DNA of 64,000 nucleotides, from assembly GCA_027068915.1 (NCBI GenBank), contig JAMOLT010000010.1, positions 434,001 through 498,000 on the forward strand. Direction: 5' to 3'. Below the pieces are notes generated by a model. It was not told the DNA's origin and did not search any database. It saw nothing but the letters and a program-made list of their open reading frames with translations. Position numbers and translations under genes: made by a program. This document shows, one piece after another, positions 41,612 to 54,163 of this stretch. Source of the DNA: Sedimenticola sp. (lineage in GTDB: Bacteria > Pseudomonadota > Gammaproteobacteria > Chromatiales > Chromatiaceae). Numbering within the stretch: the first letter of the stretch is position 1; each line of letters opens with the position of its first letter.

Positions 41612-41695
41612 GATGAACCAGAAACAGGGGGCAGCCGAATGCTCCCTGTTTTATTGCAAACCGATCAAGAATTACGAATGTACCTGGAGTATGAA

Positions 41696-42301
41696 ATGAA
41701 AAAAGCACTGTTGATCGCTTCTTTTGTGGCCCTGGCCGTTTCTGGCACCGCACAAGCAGCCGGTGACGCGGCAGCCGGCAAAACAAAGTCCGCAGCTTGT
41801 GCTGCCTGTCATGGCGCGGATGGTAACAGCGGCGCAAACCCCCTGTGGCCCAAGCTGGCCGGCCAGCATCCCAAGTACATTGCCAAACAGCTGCATGACT
41901 TCAAGGCCAACCAACGCAAGGACGCCACCATGGCGCCCATGGCTGCCCCCCTGAAGGATCAGGACATTGATGATCTGGCCGCATATTTTTCCAGCCTGAG
42001 CCGCAAGATCGGCGAGGCTGCAGCGGAAAAGGTGGAGCTGGGGCAAAGCCTGTATCGCTCTGGCAACAGCAATGGCGCCTCTGCCTGTACTGGCTGCCAC
42101 GGCCCCAGCGGTGATGGAAATGGGCCTGCCAACTTCCCGGCCCTGAGTGGTCAGAGTGCTGCCTATGTCGCCAAGCAGCTCAAGGACTTTCGTTCCGGAG
42201 CCCGCAGCAATGATCTGAACGGGATGATGGCCGGTGTTGCCTCCAAGCTGACGGATGAGGAAATCGAAGCGGTTTCCCAGTATGTGCAGGGGCTGCATTG
42301 A
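41696..42301 (+). CDS. Diheme cytochrome c4
   Basis: Signal peptide; CAACHGADG and CTGCHGPSG; two c-type domains. Confidence 0.9.
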   Translation: MKKALLIASFVALAVSGTAQAAGDAAAGKTKSAACAACHGADGNSGANPLWPKLAGQHPKYIAKQLHDFKANQRKDATMAPMAAPLKDQDIDDLAAYFSSLSRKIGEAAAEKVELGQSLYRSGNSNGASACTGCHGPSGDGNGPANFPALSGQSAAYVAKQLKDFRSGARSNDLNGMMAGVASKLTDEEIEAVSQYVQGLH

Positions 42302-45376: not shown

Positions 45377-46153
45377 TCAGGAAATAGCGTTACTCAGGTG
45401 GGCAAAGTCCTCCACAGACAATTGTTCGGCCCTGGCAGAAGGGTCTATACCGCAATTCCTCATCGTATCTACTGATACCAGCTCCCTGAGGGTGTTACGC
45501 AGGGTCTTACGCCGCTGGGAGAAGGCCTGGGCGACCACCTGCGAGAATATTTCAGGCTTTTGAATAGCGATGGGCGGCTTATCATAGGGGATGAGGCGCA
45601 CGAAGGCAGATGCCACCTTGGGTGCGGGTTGAAATGCACCGGGGCCGATGGGAAACAGCATCTGTACTTTGCAGGAGGCTTGCAACATCACGCTCAGACG
45701 GCCATAGGTCTTGCTTCCCGGCCCCGCAGCCATGCGTTCCACCACTTCTTTTTGCAGCATGAAGTGCATGTCCTGCAGGCATTGGGCATTTTCCAGCAGA
45801 TGAAACATCAGGGGGGTGGAGATGTTGTAGGGCAAATTGCCGACGATGCGCAATTTTCCACCAGTTGCTGCCAGCTGGCAGAAGTTGAATTTCAGGGCAT
45901 CTGCAGAGTGCAGGTGAAAACCTGGGTGATGGGCATATTTGGTACGCAGCAGCTTTACCAGATCCCAATCCAGCTCCACAGCATCAAGCTTGTTCACCGT
46001 CGCCAGCAGCTGTTCAGTAATAGCGCCTTGTCCGGGGCCAATTTCTACAAGGTGGTCGCCAGGGGCAGGACGGATGGAGCGGATGATTTTGTCGATAACC
46101 ACAGGGTCATGAAGGAAATTCTGCCCGAATCGTTTGCGTGCCCTGTGTGCCAT
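45377..46153 (-). CDS. rsmA: 16S rRNA (adenine1518/1519-N6)-dimethyltransferase
   Basis: RKRFGQNFLHDPVVIDKIIRSI; VEIGPGQGAITEQL; NLPYNIS. Confidence 0.97.
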   Translation of the reverse strand: MAHRARKRFGQNFLHDPVVIDKIIRSIRPAPGDHLVEIGPGQGAITEQLLATVNKLDAVELDWDLVKLLRTKYAHHPGFHLHSADALKFNFCQLAATGGKLRIVGNLPYNISTPLMFHLLENAQCLQDMHFMLQKEVVERMAAGPGSKTYGRLSVMLQASCKVQMLFPIGPGAFQPAPKVASAFVRLIPYDKPPIAIQKPEIFSQVVAQAFSQRRKTLRNTLRELVSVDTMRNCGIDPSARAEQLSVEDFAHLSNAIS

Positions 46154-46413
46154 TTGGGCATTGTACCCTTGATTTCTCCTGACTGTGGTCTATTGGTTAT
46201 TATTAACTTGGCCATCAAATATATCTGCTATGGTGCATAATGAATCTTTTCATGCTCGAAATACTTTTTAACCTGTACGGGTCTTTTCTGCAGTATGCAC
46301 AACTGCTTCCTGGCCTTCGGTTGAACCCTATCTTACCCAGGCCACTCCACAATGGCCTCCTTTTTTAGCTACCCTGTGCACTTGAAATTGGAATTCGCCA
46401 AACTCAATCTGAA

Positions 46414-46650: not shown

Positions 46651-46714
46651 GCACAGATGCCAAGCAAGAATATTAATTAGAGCTGGCCTGAACTAGAGTT
46701 TTGGAGTGAGTCGT

Positions 46715-47917
46715 ATGTATAGAACCAGTAACAATGTTCTCATGAACCATCTTTTTTTAAACGGGAGCAAGAAACACGGGGTAACCACGCTCCTCCTGAT
46801 CCTGCTGGTTTTTTCCGACCTGTGCGGTGCAGGGGAGAAAGACTTCCGAAAACAGTTTATAACGAATTACAAGACCTTTCAGTTTGGCGCCCAGGAAAAG
46901 CTGGTTAAGGGAACTAGTGCCCGGCATATGCAGGCTGAAATTCGTACCCTGGTCGATGAGGCAATGACTACTAACAAGGATTACACCGATAGACTGTATA
47001 TGCTGGATGTAGCCAATGCCATGGCCAGTGCCTACCAACACTGGCATGGGGATATCAAGGCTTTGACAAAGGAAATAGAAAAACTAATAAAGGCGGAGCT
47101 TAAGCAGGAAGAAATACGTGTTGCCAAGCTGATGCGGTGGAAGAAAGAGGAACGATTTCTTGGTAATTTTGTAATGAAAGACCATATGGCAGAAATGGAG
47201 CAGGCAGGTGTTGCGCCAGTTATATATCCGCATTGGGTGCATCGCATCTGGTTTGAATGCAAGGTCTGTCACCAGGATATTTTTGCAATGAACAGGTGGC
47301 GTAACAAGGTCTCACATCAAAAAATTGAGTCAGGAAAACAGTGTGGTGTTTGCCATGATGGGAAAATGGTTTTCGGAGTCAAGGACAAGGGGCAGTGTAC
47401 AAAATGTCATATTGCCGGAAAACCCGAGGCTGAAAAATTGCACCATACAGATAAGATTGATCATGCTAGGATCAAGCAAGTTGCAGAACGGGTGGGGGCT
47501 GAATGGAATATTGAGAATCTCCCAGAAGGTAAAGTTCCTGTTGATAAGTTTGGCTTTATCAACTGGCTTAATCTGAAAGAAAATGGAGTCTTTAAGCCAA
47601 TCCACTCTTTAAGAGAGGGTTTTGCACATGAAGTACGGGATAATAAAATATTATTTAAATCAAAAGGGAAGATTGATGATGTAATTTTTGATCATAAAGT
47701 ACATTCTAACTGGATTAACTGCTCGTCATGCCATCCGGAAATTTTTCGTGAAACTACCACTAATGATGTAAAAATGATTCGAATGTCAAAAGGAAAATTT
47801 TGCGGCTACTGCCATGGCAAAGTATCTTTTACTTTTGCAGACTGCAAGCGTTGCCACAACCAGAAAAAGGGAGCCGGCAAGGCTGGGGTAATTATTCATC
47901 AGGGGGCCGCACAATAA
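46715..47917 (+). CDS. Hexaheme cytochrome with two c7-type triheme modules and an N-terminal helical domain
   Basis: CKVCH, CGVCH, CTKCH, CSSCH, CGYCH, CKRCH; signal peptide; GGAG 8 nt before ATG. Confidence 0.85.
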   Translation: MYRTSNNVLMNHLFLNGSKKHGVTTLLLILLVFSDLCGAGEKDFRKQFITNYKTFQFGAQEKLVKGTSARHMQAEIRTLVDEAMTTNKDYTDRLYMLDVANAMASAYQHWHGDIKALTKEIEKLIKAELKQEEIRVAKLMRWKKEERFLGNFVMKDHMAEMEQAGVAPVIYPHWVHRIWFECKVCHQDIFAMNRWRNKVSHQKIESGKQCGVCHDGKMVFGVKDKGQCTKCHIAGKPEAEKLHHTDKIDHARIKQVAERVGAEWNIENLPEGKVPVDKFGFINWLNLKENGVFKPIHSLREGFAHEVRDNKILFKSKGKIDDVIFDHKVHSNWINCSSCHPEIFRETTTNDVKMIRMSKGKFCGYCHGKVSFTFADCKRCHNQKKGAGKAGVIIHQGAAQ

Positions 47918-48088
47918 CTGGCCCAGGAAGTTTTGACCGCATGCCAGACATGGTAATCCTGCCTGCATTTAAACAAGCCAAACCAAGCCGGCAAGCAGAC
48001 CACAAAAATTCAGCCTGATGCAGGCGGTGACGAAGCAGACTGGAGGGTGTTTTTTTGGCTCGTCACTATAATTAAAGAGGAGGAGAGC

Positions 48089-48793
48089 ATGAGATCACCT
48101 TTTAGGTACACAAGGCTACTTGCAGCATTCTCTCTGGCTATATACGGCTGCTTCACGCAAATCGCTGCAGCTGAAGACTCCAGCCTTATTGCCGGCAAGA
48201 GCATTTTTGACCGTTTGTGCATCTATTGCCATGGAAGCAAGGGGGAAGGAGATGGCCCCGCTGGCTTGTTGTCTGGCGTAGACACGGGTGACCTGTCCAA
48301 CCAGGCATACATGTCAAAGCTGTCAGACCAGGAGCTGTATGACCGCATTGCCTGGGGCCAGGAGAAATTTCCTTACCTGCAGATGCCGGGCTGGAGATCC
48401 AGCCTGAAAGAGCAGGAAATACGAGCCGTTATAAACTATGTCCGTTCTTTGGCTGTAGACAAGGGACCGCTGACAACTCCATCTCCGAAGGAGAGAGAGA
48501 AAAAATTCCGGGATGACCCGCTAGAAAGGGGGCGTGTGCATTACCTTCACTACTGCTCCGGGTGCCACGGTAAATCTGGCGATGGTGATGGCGAGGGTGG
48601 AAAAAACCTTGCAACAAAACCCGCCGCACTAAGTGACCCTGCTTTAGCTGCCACGATAACGCCAGCAAGCATCGATGCCTATTTAACCACCAATTCCGGC
48701 AGAGGTGGTGGCAGAAATATGCCAGTATTCGAAGATGGTTTTAGAGATAAGATCAAAGACATCACTCTGTACATCAAGACCCTGGCAAAATAA
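48089..48793 (+). CDS. Diheme cytochrome c
   Basis: Signal peptide; CIYCHGSKGEGDG and CSGCHGKSGDGDG; GAGGAGAG SD. Confidence 0.9.
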   Translation: MRSPFRYTRLLAAFSLAIYGCFTQIAAAEDSSLIAGKSIFDRLCIYCHGSKGEGDGPAGLLSGVDTGDLSNQAYMSKLSDQELYDRIAWGQEKFPYLQMPGWRSSLKEQEIRAVINYVRSLAVDKGPLTTPSPKEREKKFRDDPLERGRVHYLHYCSGCHGKSGDGDGEGGKNLATKPAALSDPALAATITPASIDAYLTTNSGRGGGRNMPVFEDGFRDKIKDITLYIKTLAK

Positions 48794-48969
48794 TATAAAA
48801 GAAAATTCTTCCATTGCCCGAAAAGGATCATGATTTTATCCCCCACCTCATAAGGCCGGGCTTTATTTTAGGATAAAATTGCGATATATTCGATTGAACC
48901 AACCGATAATACGCAAGTCTTACGGTTGCGTTATAGATGGATTTATATAACTTTAAAGAGGTAATGCAA

Positions 48970-49311
48970 ATGAGTGAGAATGTTGATAAGAATCGCAGAA
49001 GTGCTTTGAAGCTGGCTGTTGGCGCTGCCGTTGCCGTACCATTGGGTATGTTAACTACCCGTAAGGCTTTTGCAGAAGGCTTGCCGCACGTCGACGAAGC
49101 CAGCGCCACTGCTGTCGCACTGAAATATTCAGCTGATGCAACAAAGGCTGAGCGTGTTGATAAAGCAGGCACTCCTGCAGATCAGCAATTTTGTCATAAC
49201 TGTCTGCTTGCACCATCCCATGAGGGCGACTTTTTTCCATGTCCACTGTTTCCCGGCAATACCGTTGCCAGGGATGGATGGTGCGCTAGCTGGACGCTAC
49301 TAACAAAGTAA
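48970..49311 (+). CDS. High-potential iron-sulfur protein (HiPIP), Tat-exported
   Basis: Twin-arginine NRRSALKLAVGAAVAV; FCHNCLLAPSHEGDFFPCPLFPGNTVARDGWCASW four-Cys pattern. Confidence 0.9.
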   Translation: MSENVDKNRRSALKLAVGAAVAVPLGMLTTRKAFAEGLPHVDEASATAVALKYSADATKAERVDKAGTPADQQFCHNCLLAPSHEGDFFPCPLFPGNTVARDGWCASWTLLTK

Positions 49312-49376
49312 ATAATACTGCACGGGCTTGTTTCACCAGCGTAACTTGGTGATAGTAAAGGCCACCTCCATAGATT

Positions 49377-49445
49377 GTCATTCCGGCGCAGGCCGAAATC
49401 CATAAGTCCTTGAAAACTTTGGACACCGGTCTATGCTGGTGTGAC
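49377..49445. repeat. REP/dRS3-like palindromic repeat
   Basis: GTCATTCCGGCGCAGGCCGAAATCC...GGACACCGGTCTATGCTGGTGTGACG imperfect inverted repeat. Confidence 0.55.
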
Positions 49446-49481
49446 GAAAACCGAATTATTCGAGGTGTCCTAAAGCAATTA

Positions 49482-49508
49482 AAATGGATGGTAGACCCAT
49501 CCATTTTT
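49482..49508 (+). terminator. Hairpin plus T-run
   Basis: AATGGATGG-tagac-CCATCCATTTTTTT. Confidence 0.7.
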
Positions 49509-49523
49509 TTATGCTCACTGGTT

Positions 49524-49650
49524 ATACTGCGTCGGAATAAAAGGCCCTTTCAGTGAATCACAATGCGGCCAGATGCAAAGCGCGTCTCGCTGAGAATGGC
49601 ATGCCCTTTTCAAGATATGCAGCAACCGCAGGGAGGCCCGCAAATGGCCC
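49524..49650. repeat. MITE family, degenerate left-end copy
   Basis: ATACTGCGTCGGAATAAAAGGCCCTTTCAGTGAATCACAATGCGGCCAGATGCAAAGCG matches the 16628 copy left end. Confidence 0.8.
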
Positions 49651-49901
49651 GACCCCGCGTCGCCTAACAAGGCTGTTAGCCGTATAAGGACGTACGGCCA
49701 TTTTCAATGACCATAAGTCATTGAAAATCGAGGAAAGACAAAATCACATTTTTATCTTTCCGGGTTGAGAAAAACCATGGTAGGCTTTTTTCAACATCCT
49801 GCTAAAGCGCCTACTGTTGGCGGCAACCCATGAAGACCTGCTAACGAATGCCGGCTTTTGAGCCTCTCAAGCTCATATCTTCTCAAACTGATAGAGATGC
49901 C

Positions 49902-50627
49902 CTAAATATCAAAAGGCAAATAGATATAGTCTAAATCATGCCGGTGTGTTCCGATGGCTTTTCTATCTTCAAAGTCAAATTCAAAGCCAGAGCCCACGAA
50001 TGGGCTCTTTAGGTTATGACATTTTTCACTACATATATTATTTTCAGGTGATGGCATGGTTAATCCACCTAGCTCTTTATAGTCATCTAATGTGTAGGTT
50101 CCTGTTTTTTCCATCATCATGTCGACATACACACTGCCCGGGCCATGACACATTTCACATTCAACATTGGCCATTTCAGGCGTTTCTTCAATACTGACAA
50201 ACCCGCCAGGCTCTCCATACCCGGTCACATGACATTTCAGGCACTCCCCGTCTGTAGTGTAATCCCTGTCAGGATCCAGCCCCGCCTTGAGCTTTGCCTC
50301 CGCCCTTACGCCCGACTTCAAAAGCTCAAAGCTTTTTGCCATTTTTGTGCCAAGCCACGATTCATAATGCGGCATATGACATATTCTACAGTTTTCAACC
50401 CCCACATACTTTACCTGCGAGGCCTCAACCTGCACTGCAGTCTCTAGAGAGCCTGTTATTGCTCCGGGTTTTTTATTCTCTGCGACTGTCTGTTTATTGT
50501 TTTCAGTGTCTGGAGAGGGCTTTAAGGCAATAAAATAGAACGACATGCCCCCTAAGGCAAGTACAATAAGTACAACCAACAGTTTTATATATCTTTCCAT
50601 GTCACCGTTATTGTGATGATGCCCCAT
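49902..50627 (-). CDS. Membrane-anchored multiheme cytochrome, c554-like
   Basis: N-terminal TM; CRICH, CLKCH, CEMCH plus CSEKCH (CX3CH). Confidence 0.85.
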   Translation of the reverse strand: MGHHHNNGDMERYIKLLVVLIVLALGGMSFYFIALKPSPDTENNKQTVAENKKPGAITGSLETAVQVEASQVKYVGVENCRICHMPHYESWLGTKMAKSFELLKSGVRAEAKLKAGLDPDRDYTTDGECLKCHVTGYGEPGGFVSIEETPEMANVECEMCHGPGSVYVDMMMEKTGTYTLDDYKELGGLTMPSPENNICSEKCHNLKSPFVGSGFEFDFEDRKAIGTHRHDLDYIYLPFDI

Positions 50628-50672
50628 TCATTGCATGGAGTTTAGATAAAAGACCATTCATTCTATGGTTCA

Positions 50673-50714
50673 TTAACAGGTTGTTGAAAAACAGTGTTTT
50701 TCAACAACCTGTTA
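50673..50714. terminator. Perfect 20-bp hairpin (hairpin family copy 2)
   Basis: TTAACAGGTTGTTGAAAAAC-agt-GTTTTTCAACAACCTGTTAA. Confidence 0.85.
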
Positions 50715-51422
50715 ATGCTCGGTTTTTTTCCTCAGCATATGACAGCGTCTGCAATTGAAGGGCTCCTGAACCGGATAAGTCACCGGGAAAGCCACTACTC
50801 CATGACATTTTCCACACCATTTTCCTTCGAATATTCCAGCCATCCGAATATTAGTAGCTCCAACTTCCTCTTTAAACAGCACTGGATGACAGCTATTGCA
50901 ATTTATCATGTTGCTGTGAGCACCATGCGGAAACAGGACATCCGGGAAAAAACTTTCTGCCACCTCGAGCCTGATCATGTTTTCAAAAAAGCCTTCTTCC
51001 GCTTTTTCCTGTGAGGATTGTTTTTCATCAATACTAGCCCGCGGCGATATCAGTCCTTCAATTTCCGCCTTTGTCCAGTTCACCAGCCCAAACTTATCCT
51101 TTGGCAACAGCTCGAATGCCGGCGCATCTCCATCAATACCCTCATTCCGTTTCAGGTATCCGTACACATCTACGTCGTTGAGGAATTGACCAAGCATTTG
51201 CTCCTGGGAAGCCTCACATTCCAAGCCGGTTACCTGTTTGCACAAACTGTCACCCGCCTCTGTTGGTGTCTGCTTTATAGGAACCATTGCTGACACTTCT
51301 TGGGACTGCATACGACTATCTGTTGCAGTACAGCCGACAAGAAAAACAACGGGGAGAAGAGCCGCCACAATAAGAGCCGACTCAGGCCGGGGATATCTCA
51401 AACCACCGAAAGAAAGGCGCAT
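50712..51422 (-). CDS. Triheme c7-type cytochrome lipoprotein
   Basis: Lipobox-like LVGC; LLPKDKFGLVNW; CNSCH, CGKCH, CRRCH. Confidence 0.85.
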   Translation of the reverse strand: MRLSFGGLRYPRPESALIVAALLPVVFLVGCTATDSRMQSQEVSAMVPIKQTPTEAGDSLCKQVTGLECEASQEQMLGQFLNDVDVYGYLKRNEGIDGDAPAFELLPKDKFGLVNWTKAEIEGLISPRASIDEKQSSQEKAEEGFFENMIRLEVAESFFPDVLFPHGAHSNMINCNSCHPVLFKEEVGATNIRMAGIFEGKWCGKCHGVVAFPVTYPVQEPFNCRRCHMLRKKTEH

Positions 51423-51505
51423 AAACGTGTTTCCCGTTATTTTTAACCTAAAGCAATAAGCTTGCGGCGGCCCGCTTGTACCAGGCAGCCAGACTCATCC
51501 ATGCT

Positions 51506-52300
51506 TCATTTAACTGCTGTTGATTTAGTTTGTTCTTTTTTGACTTTTTCCTGAGTATGGCACCGGGAACAGTCTGCCAGTGGGAAAGCCACTTTGCCAT
51601 GGCATCTGCCACACCATTCGCCTTTGCTGATCTCCAACATGCTCATTTTATTCTGCCCTTTGGCCATTATAAAAATAGCCGGATGGCAGCTCGAGCAGTC
51701 CAACCAGTAAGCATGGGCCTTGTGCGGGTACAATACATCCTTAACAAAATCACCTTTGGCCTTAATGATTATATCCAAGTCGAGTGGTGGAATAACCGGC
51801 GCATTCTGGTCAAGGCTATCGAGGGGCTGGATTTCGCCCTGATCTACCACTGCAACCCAGTCGGTCAATCCAAACTTATCTTTGGGAAGGCCTGCTAGTG
51901 CGGCGGGGCGGTCGCTCATACCTATCTGGTAGGCTTCACTTGAAGGGCTATTTGGATCTCCTTTTCCAGCAATTTTTCCATCACTCCCCAAGTAGATTGA
52001 GTTTTTAGACGCTGCCTGCTTTGATGGGGCTGCAGCTGTAGCAGCTGCTGCATCTTTAGCCTTATCAACAACTTTCACCGGCACTGCCGTTTCTTTTCCG
52101 GCAGTTTCTGCGACTTTATTTTTCACTTTATTGGCTGGCGCTACACTTACTTCCGTTGCCTTAGCTTCAGCCTTGTTCTCTAGCGCGGACACAGGTTCCG
52201 ATCGGCCAGGCTCACCCGAGGTAGTACAGCTTACGATGACTATCAGCGGTAGAGTTGCTATTACACCAACATTAATAATTCTATGAAATAGTGTTTTCAT
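51506..52300 (-). CDS. Triheme c7-type cytochrome lipoprotein with Ala/Lys-rich linker
   Basis: Lipobox-like IVSC; low-complexity EAKATEV...DAAAATAAAPSKQ; LPKDKFGLTDW; CSSCH, CGRCH, CSRCH. Confidence 0.85.
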   Translation of the reverse strand: MKTLFHRIINVGVIATLPLIVIVSCTTSGEPGRSEPVSALENKAEAKATEVSVAPANKVKNKVAETAGKETAVPVKVVDKAKDAAAATAAAPSKQAASKNSIYLGSDGKIAGKGDPNSPSSEAYQIGMSDRPAALAGLPKDKFGLTDWVAVVDQGEIQPLDSLDQNAPVIPPLDLDIIIKAKGDFVKDVLYPHKAHAYWLDCSSCHPAIFIMAKGQNKMSMLEISKGEWCGRCHGKVAFPLADCSRCHTQEKVKKEQTKSTAVK

Positions 52301-52313
52301 CTATATCAGCCTC

Positions 52314-52691
52314 TCATTGATTGCTAGCTGCTTCATCTGCTTTCGGTTTAAATTCTGCCGAATGACATCTCTCGCACTCAAGAGGCTCCCAGGCGATCTG
52401 CCCATTGTGACAAACACCACAAGATTTTCCGTCCATAATGTCATTCATGTTGGCATTGTTCGCCCCTTTGCGCATTACGAATATGCTTTCATGACAAACT
52501 TTACATTTGTAGCGTATGCGATGAAACCAATGCGGAAAGACTACCGCACCAACCTCCGCCTTTTCCATGCCATCACGAGTCGCGTCCATATAGATGTCCC
52601 CATATTCCTTCGCTTCAGCAAGAGAAAAAGCAAACACCACTATCAGTGACATTACTAATAAATTACTACGTACCGACTTAACTTTGATCAT
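52314..52691 (-). CDS. Periplasmic triheme c7-type cytochrome
   Basis: Signal peptide ...SLAEA; FPHWFHRIRYKCKVCHESIFVM, CGVCH, CERCH. Confidence 0.87.
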   Translation of the reverse strand: MIKVKSVRSNLLVMSLIVVFAFSLAEAKEYGDIYMDATRDGMEKAEVGAVVFPHWFHRIRYKCKVCHESIFVMRKGANNANMNDIMDGKSCGVCHNGQIAWEPLECERCHSAEFKPKADEAASNQ

Positions 52692-52972
52692 ATAAAACCC
52701 CTCACAAAAAAACCATTTTTATTATAGGTTTATAGTTTTCTGTGCAGCTTTCATACCGCACTATCCCCCATGAGAAAACATCACACCACAAAAAAAAACA
52801 TTAAACAACCATGTTTTTATTATGTTACTCGACTTCATTTAAATAAATTTCTAGTATGCCAATCGGGAAATTCTACCGGGTCGTTTACATATTATTTGGG
52901 CATTATTCCTTGAATTTTCCCGGTTGTGGTCTATTGGTTACTATAAGAGGGAATGAATGTGAGGAACAAAAA

Positions 52973-53206
52973 ATGACAGCGCATTGTGCCGATATTCTGA
53001 TCCATATTAACGAAAGCCTGGATGACGCCAGCATTCATGATATCGAGCGAGATATCAGCATGATCGAAGGCGTTTACAGCGTCTGCACCTATGAAAACAC
53101 TCGCCACCTGATGTTGGTGGACTATGATCCCGGGTGTGTCGCCTCCCAGGAGCTACTGGACAAGATGAAGAATCATGGCTTGCACGCTAAACTGATTGGC
53201 CTGTAA
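52973..53206 (+). CDS. Small ferredoxin-fold/HMA-like protein lacking the CxxC metal motif
   Basis: MTAHCADILIHINESLDDASIHDIERDISMIEGVYSVCTYENTRHLMLVDYDPG...LLDKMKNHGLHAKLIGL. Confidence 0.6.
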   Translation: MTAHCADILIHINESLDDASIHDIERDISMIEGVYSVCTYENTRHLMLVDYDPGCVASQELLDKMKNHGLHAKLIGL

Positions 53207-53338: not shown

Positions 53339-54163
53339 ATGAAAACGCTGATAGCGGTGGTTCTTGTGTTCTGTGTCCAGGGTGCTCTTGCGGATGGAAT
53401 AGGTTTTGATCCGTCGACGGGCATCAACGCAGGGAACAACAAGATATCCAATCTGGCTGATCCTGCCCAGCCCGGCGATGCCGCCACCAAGGGCTATTCG
53501 GATGCGCAGTTGGCTACACATTCAGCCAATGGCAGCGCGCATCATGCTCGCTATACAGATGGTGAGGCAGTGGCGGCCATTCTGACAGCAGATGGCGATA
53601 GTTCAGGCTTGGATGCAGACAAACTGGACGGCATGGATGCGGATGCTTTCATGCTGGATTATGGTTATGGGGGATATATTCCCGTTCCGTTGGGTTCGCT
53701 GTTTCTCAATAATGCCGCTTTCGATAGTTGGGGAGTGACGTTACCTGCCAGTGGCACCTCCTCTTTCACCATAAATTCGGTCGCCCCAAAAGACATTTAC
53801 TACTGGAATACAATCAATAGCACGGAACTGATCGTGGAAATCATGGTGTATTATCCAGGGTCGGCGGGTGCATGCCAGGCGGTGATCGAGCCGCTGCCCA
53901 AGGATGTTACCAGCTATCTTCGCGTGGGATTTCAGGATGGTTATTACAGTGTCGGCATAACCGCTGACCCGTTTCCGCCATTTACCGGGCCCCACAGTTC
54001 CCTGTCTCAGGAATACAAACTGACGGGCATCCCCCCCGAGAGTCCCTTTCGGTTGGAAATTTCCAGAAAAGGCGATGATCCTGCAGACAATTGCGGCGAA
54101 ATCCGTATTGCTGGCGTTGCCATCAGATATCCGCAGCAAGGGCACAAAAATAATTGGTGGTAG
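53339..54163 (+). CDS. Secreted hypothetical protein with phage tail-fibre-like segment
   Basis: Signal peptide; NKISNLADPAQPGDAATKGYSDAQL and GLDADKLDGMDADAF. Confidence 0.6.
   Translation: MKTLIAVVLVFCVQGALADGIGFDPSTGINAGNNKISNLADPAQPGDAATKGYSDAQLATHSANGSAHHARYTDGEAVAAILTADGDSSGLDADKLDGMDADAFMLDYGYGGYIPVPLGSLFLNNAAFDSWGVTLPASGTSSFTINSVAPKDIYYWNTINSTELIVEIMVYYPGSAGACQAVIEPLPKDVTSYLRVGFQDGYYSVGITADPFPPFTGPHSSLSQEYKLTGIPPESPFRLEISRKGDDPADNCGEIRIAGVAIRYPQQGHKNNWW

Follow-up and report, generated by a model that had tools for sequence, protein, structure and literature searches.

An acquired island of multiheme cytochromes and a high-potential iron-sulfur protein in Sedimenticola sp. that may form an electron relay of the Uet type

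A 64,000-nucleotide stretch of a Sedimenticola sp. genome (the window; G000:C10:434001-498000) harbors an island of seven genes for exported redox carriers. We read this island as an accessory periplasm-to-outer-membrane electron relay of the type known from the undecaheme electron transfer (Uet) pathway, with a high-potential iron-sulfur protein (HiPIP) and a diheme cytochrome c as its high-potential links, and give this reading a probability of roughly one half (0.52). The source genome (G000; 2.83 Mb in 61 contigs) is nearly complete. Inspection of the open reading frames (ORFs) and searches with Pfam and NCBIfam revealed exported redox carriers only, in two facing groups (Table 1). The plus-strand group comprises a hexaheme cytochrome (HEX), the diheme cytochrome (DIH) and the HiPIP. 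The minus-strand group, transcribed towards the first, comprises the triheme proteins TP, TLb and TLa and a cytochrome c554-like protein (C554). A first reading of the letters alone, the original prediction, had proposed seven such ORFs, and all of them are intact and matched to families. Its estimate of about 20 CXXCH sites, one CX3CH and a 4Fe-4S protein was exact: HEX has six CXXCH, DIH two, and TP, TLb, TLa and C554 three each, C554 carries the CX3CH (CSEKCH), and the HiPIP belongs to PF01355. The pattern TGYN6TGYCAY occurs 490 times in 2.83 Mb (112 in the control), or about once per 5.8 kb with both strands counted, so that 20 in-frame sites in 6 kb are far above background.

HEX, TP, TLb and TLa are built from c7-type triheme domains. 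Two TIGR04257/PF14522 domains were found in HEX (E 3e-36) and one TIGR04257 domain in each of the others (E 1e-14 to 1e-21), and all four proteins pass the TIGR04257 cut-off of 40 bits (HEX 123, TP 76.5, TLb 66 and TLa 54 bits). The best match of these domains in the PDB is GSU1996 (3ov0, E 2e-38), a dodecaheme "nanowire" cytochrome of Geobacter (TIGR04257; 3ov0, 3ouq, 3oue) in which every domain contains one His-Met heme (PMC10138318). A Met at the position of GSU1996 Met209/Met287 is kept in HEX domain 2 (31/31), TP (18/18), TLb (12/13) and TLa (2/2). The axial-Met position is thus occupied in four of the five island c7 domains, where His-Met ligation is probable; HEX domain 1 has a His there that is not conserved. 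In contrast to the four domains of GSU1996, the island proteins have one or two each, lipoprotein forms exist, the first HEX c7 domain lacks the Met, and HEX carries an N-terminal helical domain that has no known relative. GSU1996 has also been described as a capacitor (PMC10138318), and the c7 proteins of the island might mainly be a periplasmic electron buffer of this kind, smoothing changes in donor and oxygen supply. The match to GSU1996 and the axial Met kept in most domains would fit such a role, and a set rich in hemes but lacking an enzyme would be well suited to storage. We nevertheless hold it to be improbable: a pure buffer needs no outer-membrane lipoprotein, membrane-anchored c554-like protein or HiPIP, and it leaves unexplained the linkage to NHL and 18-heme genes described below.

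The N-terminal helical domain of HEX (residues ~47-142) is conserved, has no family match or confident fold match, and could be the docking part of the protein. The predicted structure of HEX (mean pLDDT 67) is confident only in these helices (~47-135), and a Foldseek search with it returned no PDB entry at E <= 0.001; the top-ranking one was the c7 cytochrome PpcC. We rejected MtrA/DmsE, c3, HmcA and QrcA identities for the island proteins, all matches being below cut-off; none of the proteins reached the cut-off of TIGR03508 (MtrA/MtoA decaheme). The lipobox Cys25 of TLb is invariant in 10 orthologues and is never followed by Asp at the +2 position, and sorting of TLb to the outer membrane is predicted. 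The lipobox of TLa is present only in G000 and in its congener G154.

The three remaining proteins add other types of carrier. Residues 74-166 of C554 align with Nitrosomonas cytochrome c554 (1bvb; NF043010; E 1e-23), but the match ends at about residue 170, the fourth heme site is CX3CH, the protein has a membrane anchor, and it fails the equivalog NF043010 (99 vs 400 bits). The CX3CH is real: three relatives within the genus, one of them in G000, keep it at the same place. The closest relatives of C554 are 68-70% identical and include genes in uet-type loci of the congeners G106 and G154. These loci (L163:1174-9161 on G106 C70 and L164:1457-9998 on G154 C98) carry the c554-like gene, with its conserved CX3CH, as an extra gene; only that gene of theirs was found in G000, 290 bp from the edge of contig C54. 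DIH has its best relatives in L062 (53%) and L078 (45%). The HiPIP is a clear member of the family known from purple sulfur bacteria (1eyt, 1cku), with 67 bits against a PF01355 cut-off of 22, four Cys aligned to those of 1eyt, and an RR signal. It differs from them in being encoded beside multiheme cytochromes. It is the only HiPIP among 15 same-genus genomes, and the HiPIP-positive list contains none of the family's other genomes with HEX.

The Uet pathway of Tenderiales and Gallionella (PMC10734462, PMC5371394) comprises three c7-domain trihemes (UetDEG), the porin UetC, the NHL proteins UetHI and the undecaheme UetJ (PMC10734462); "Ca. Tenderia electrophaga" is a host of this undecaheme pathway of extracellular electron transfer (EET). 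We found a complete uet-type locus in the same family as our genome (L051), encoding a tetraheme, a peptidyl-prolyl isomerase-like protein, a candidate porin, trihemes, an NHL protein and an undecaheme, and to its c7 trihemes TP is 47% and TLb 50% identical. The likeness to Uet thus lies in several predicted periplasmic c7-domain trihemes homologous to TP and TLb, in the NHL propellers and the large multiheme cytochrome to which the island core is linked in relatives, and in the C554-like gene that adjoins Uet-type loci in two congeners. On the other side, the island lacks the UetC porin, the UetJ undecaheme, the UetA tetraheme, the UetB isomerase and UetHI and adds HEX, DIH and HiPIP, while two congeners have the core at different loci, in G154 together with an 18-heme protein. 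The PCC3/PCC4 and Mtr/Mto conduits (PMC5566968, PMC10734462) likewise use periplasmic multiheme carriers that are thought to join an outer-membrane conduit to the inner membrane; the island differs from them in having no porin and no decaheme MtrA/MtoA.

Comparison with relatives defined a conserved core of HEX, TP, TLb and TLa, which occurs in Sedimenticola-type metagenome-assembled genomes (MAGs) and, altered, in a "Deltaproteobacteria" MAG. HEX was found with TP and TLb in L059, L073, L075-L079, L081-L084 and L089, with only part of TLb in L073 and L084; most of them also have TLa. In L078, from the MAG titled Deltaproteobacteria, HEX converges on a TL-TP-TL group, flanked by a DIH-like gene upstream and a c554-like one downstream, so that most of the island set recurs there and the HiPIP alone does not. 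The six cytochromes and the HiPIP had been proposed as one unit. This does not hold, since DIH-like and C554-like genes are linked to the core in L078 only and the HiPIP is nowhere else found with HEX in the family list. The cassette of G154 (L059) continues into an NHL-propeller protein and an 18-heme cytochrome. In L043, L049 and L050 its neighbors are a triheme, a 6-heme protein and a cytochrome b-like protein, which together make up an inner-membrane multiheme/cytochrome b module.

Homologues of these partners are found in G000 itself, in a multiheme locus on contig C61 (C61:41954-55927; L099, L100). The locus encodes, in order, an NHL-14-heme fusion, a triheme, a NapH-like 7-heme protein, an 8-heme protein, a 432-residue candidate barrel, a 960-residue 8-heme protein and a sigma-54 (NtrC-type) response regulator, and a histidine kinase gene adjoins it. 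The homologues lie at C61:41954-47468 and comprise the fusion, the triheme and the NapH-like protein. The NHL-14-heme protein, a diverged fusion, matches the NHL and 18-heme proteins of L059 (E 4e-31 and 5e-44), and the module of L043, L049 and L050 has C61 homologues with 31% identity over 337 residues (E 4e-43) and 29% (E 5e-15). A 425-residue 8-heme protein of the locus scores 30 bits against the 192 required by TIGR03508. C61 is a candidate conduit only, with a candidate barrel but no confirmed porin. The absence of a recognisable partner, claimed at the outset, holds for the window and not for the system, with partners beside the cassette in relatives and their homologues on C61. The suggestion of a periplasm-to-outer-membrane conduit is supported by the Uet-type triheme homology and by the neighbors in relatives, but only the relay part is present.

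We propose the following arrangement. TLb and TLa would be tethered at the inner face of the outer membrane, towards the periplasm. TP and the double-domain HEX would carry electrons across the periplasm over c7 heme wires, in most of which each domain would hold one high-potential His-Met heme, and the anchored C554-like protein may be an additional relay. DIH and HiPIP would join the relay to the inner-membrane respiratory chain, and the membrane-spanning parts would be supplied in trans, most plausibly by the C61 locus. HiPIPs and diheme cytochromes c are families of high-potential carriers. Because these added carriers are of high potential, electron uptake, towards an oxidase, is slightly favored over export. 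The genes present, their conservation and homology, the insertion and the existence of C61 are observed, whereas the localisation, the electron path, the coupling to C61 and the direction of flow are inferred.

Several observations weigh against a Uet-type relay. The island encodes neither a porin nor an NHL protein nor a large multiheme cytochrome, and the porin from a congener's Uet-type locus found matches only in G106 and G154 and none in G000. We thus do not class the island as a Uet system and read it as a functional counterpart of the triheme part of such a system. The candidate barrel of C61 has no match in Pfam or NCBIfam. Of 15 congeners, 8 have the 960-residue C61 protein, and six of these 8 lack HEX; C61 therefore does not need the island. 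HEX has no established place in Uet, and its paralogues in relatives also occur in molybdopterin oxidoreductase/NrfD/iron-sulfur (FeS)/NapC-like clusters or alone, so that HEX is not tied to outer-membrane conduits. Finally, all support for the relay is sequence-based.

The paralogues indicate that HEX is used in more than one setting. In the g45, g34 and g13 genomes they adjoin genes for a Tat-exported molybdopterin protein, NrfD, FeS and NapC-like proteins; the best NCBIfam matches of the molybdopterin protein are PhsA, DMSO/selenate reductase and QrcB, all below cut-off. The clusters in L039, L041, L044, L040 and L045 combine the Tat molybdopterin protein with NrfD, FeS, a NapC-like pentaheme and two further c7 hexahemes, a respiratory complex for which no named family was matched. 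In L087, a HEX paralogue lies beside MopB, FeS and NapC-like genes, and in L078 a siroheme-reductase-like protein, as judged by sequence, and an NrfH-like tetraheme are encoded near HEX. Such neighbors would suit an island that serves a periplasmic redox enzyme for a soluble substrate (a sulfur oxyanion, arsenic or a nitrogen oxide), not a solid or extracellular partner; the electron pool of a molybdopterin enzyme or an NrfH/NapC-type dehydrogenase would then consist of HEX and the c7 proteins. We regard this as rather unlikely. There is no such enzyme beside the island or among the scanned ORFs of the window, the predicted outer-membrane lipoprotein TLb would have no obvious role, and the island HEX is linked to TP, TLb, TLa and C554, proteins with close relatives encoded next to NHL, 18-heme or Uet-type genes. 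More tentatively than the Uet-type relay, we consider that these four genes may be the core of an undescribed, horizontally mobile periplasmic electron "bus" of Gammaproteobacteria and "Deltaproteobacteria". It would plug into differing membrane modules (Uet-like outer-membrane conduits, Qrc/PhsA-like molybdo-complexes and cytochrome b modules), and the island would be a version wired to high-potential carriers, here HiPIP and diheme.

The island is an acquired insertion between rsmA and its divergent neighbor, as the original prediction had suspected. Four observations support this: an empty site in congeners, a duplication at the edges, a different locus in G154, and AT-richness. Congeners in which this region is assembled have no island; directly after rsmA they carry a small HMA-like ORF and/or miaB. 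In G000 the island is placed between rsmA and the HMA-like ORF. About 90 bp of rsmA 5'/intergenic sequence are duplicated around it (the two edge repeats; local alignment score 71, shuffle maximum 40). The GC content is 0.457, against 0.553 +/- 0.036 in 6.66-kb windows, which bears out the predicted AT-richness, and GC at third codon positions is 0.41-0.53 in the island genes compared with a mean of 0.68 for 19 other genes of the window. HEX is absent from 13 of the 15 same-genus genomes, some of which are incomplete. The second carrier is G154, whose rsmA-miaB site is empty (L130). Its cassette lies on contig C30, where the left flank matches G000:C10:309291-312767 at 83%, a site that is free of the cassette in G000. 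In the tree the HEX proteins of the two genomes are sisters (100/99 support), but they are 68% identical, compared with 93% for lon and 78% for rsmA; the cassette has therefore moved, or it was acquired more than once. Neither a transposase nor an integrase was seen in the island, and a search of plasmids with HEX gave no match. Integration at a tRNA was rejected, as the window contains none.

Transfer could also have left a stranded, non-functional remnant, the periplasmic part of an EET locus whose outer-membrane genes were lost. The absence of the Uet porin from G000, the NHL and 18-heme genes retained with the same core in G154, and the absence of the cassette from 13 of 15 congeners would be compatible with this, yet it seems very unlikely to us. 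None of the seven frames is broken, the heme motifs and the axial Met have been retained, and HiPIP, DIH and C554 are extra, so that the set is more than a simple truncation of the cassette in G154. Third codon positions vary most between the window and G154 cassette genes, consistent with purifying selection; dS (NG86) was not computable for them, which we read as saturation (lon 0.72, rsmA 1.26).

Table 1. Features of the island and its edges, in positions of the window.
Feature	Position	Strand	Description
Island as a whole	46706-52691		7 intact ORFs
Left edge repeat	46114..46203	none	rsmA 5' end and upstream sequence; second copy at right edge
HEX, hexaheme cytochrome	46706..47917	+	N-terminal helical domain, then two c7-type triheme domains; ATG start probably 46715
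DIH, exported diheme class I cytochrome c	48047..48793	+	two PF00034 domains; ATG start probably 48089
HiPIP	48937..49311	+	PF01355, E 1.5e-18; Tat-type RR signal
C554-like cytochrome	49902..50627	-	PF13435, E 8e-24; N-terminal membrane anchor; 3 CXXCH + 1 CX3CH
Palindrome, perfect 23-bp arms	50671..50717	none	between C554 and TLa
TLa, c7-type triheme cytochrome	50712..51422	-	one TIGR04257 domain; lipobox
TLb, c7-type triheme lipoprotein	51506..52300	-	one TIGR04257 domain; lipobox Cys25
TP, soluble periplasmic c7-type triheme cytochrome	52314..52691	-	one TIGR04257 domain
Right edge repeat	52866..52944	none	degraded second copy of rsmA 5'/intergenic sequence

The location between rsmA and miaB was correctly predicted, but two further ORFs separate the island from miaB: the HMA-like ORF (52856-53206), native to congeners, and a tail-fibre-like ORF (53339-54163). 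The latter has weak PHROG tail matches and is absent at that place in congeners; a similar domain (GLDAD-LDG) is found in C61:37131-38675. A native c4-like diheme cytochrome c is encoded at 41639-42301, 4.4 kb upstream of the island. In agreement with the original prediction, Pfam scans of 20 other ORFs of the window revealed no oxidase, reductase, hydrogenase or porin. We rejected the idea that the palindrome between C554 and TLa is a mobile repeat specific to the island: 9 places in the genome carry its 31-bp core (<=3 mismatches; 0 in the reversed control), which is thus a dispersed resident repeat. Elsewhere on the same contig (C10 ~117-127 kb; L103), a nitrous oxide reductase gene (PF18764) lies with further nos-like genes and a NapC/NirT-type hexaheme, so that N2O respiration is possible.

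A part of a putative EET apparatus can thus move between genomic sites apart from its porin, and in this vent Sedimenticola-type lineage a HiPIP has become linked to c7 wires. Should the relay and the C61 locus work together, the capacity for EET would be modular here and would be overlooked by searches that require a porin-cytochrome cluster. The island also provides a short gene list for testing electron exchange in these bacteria.

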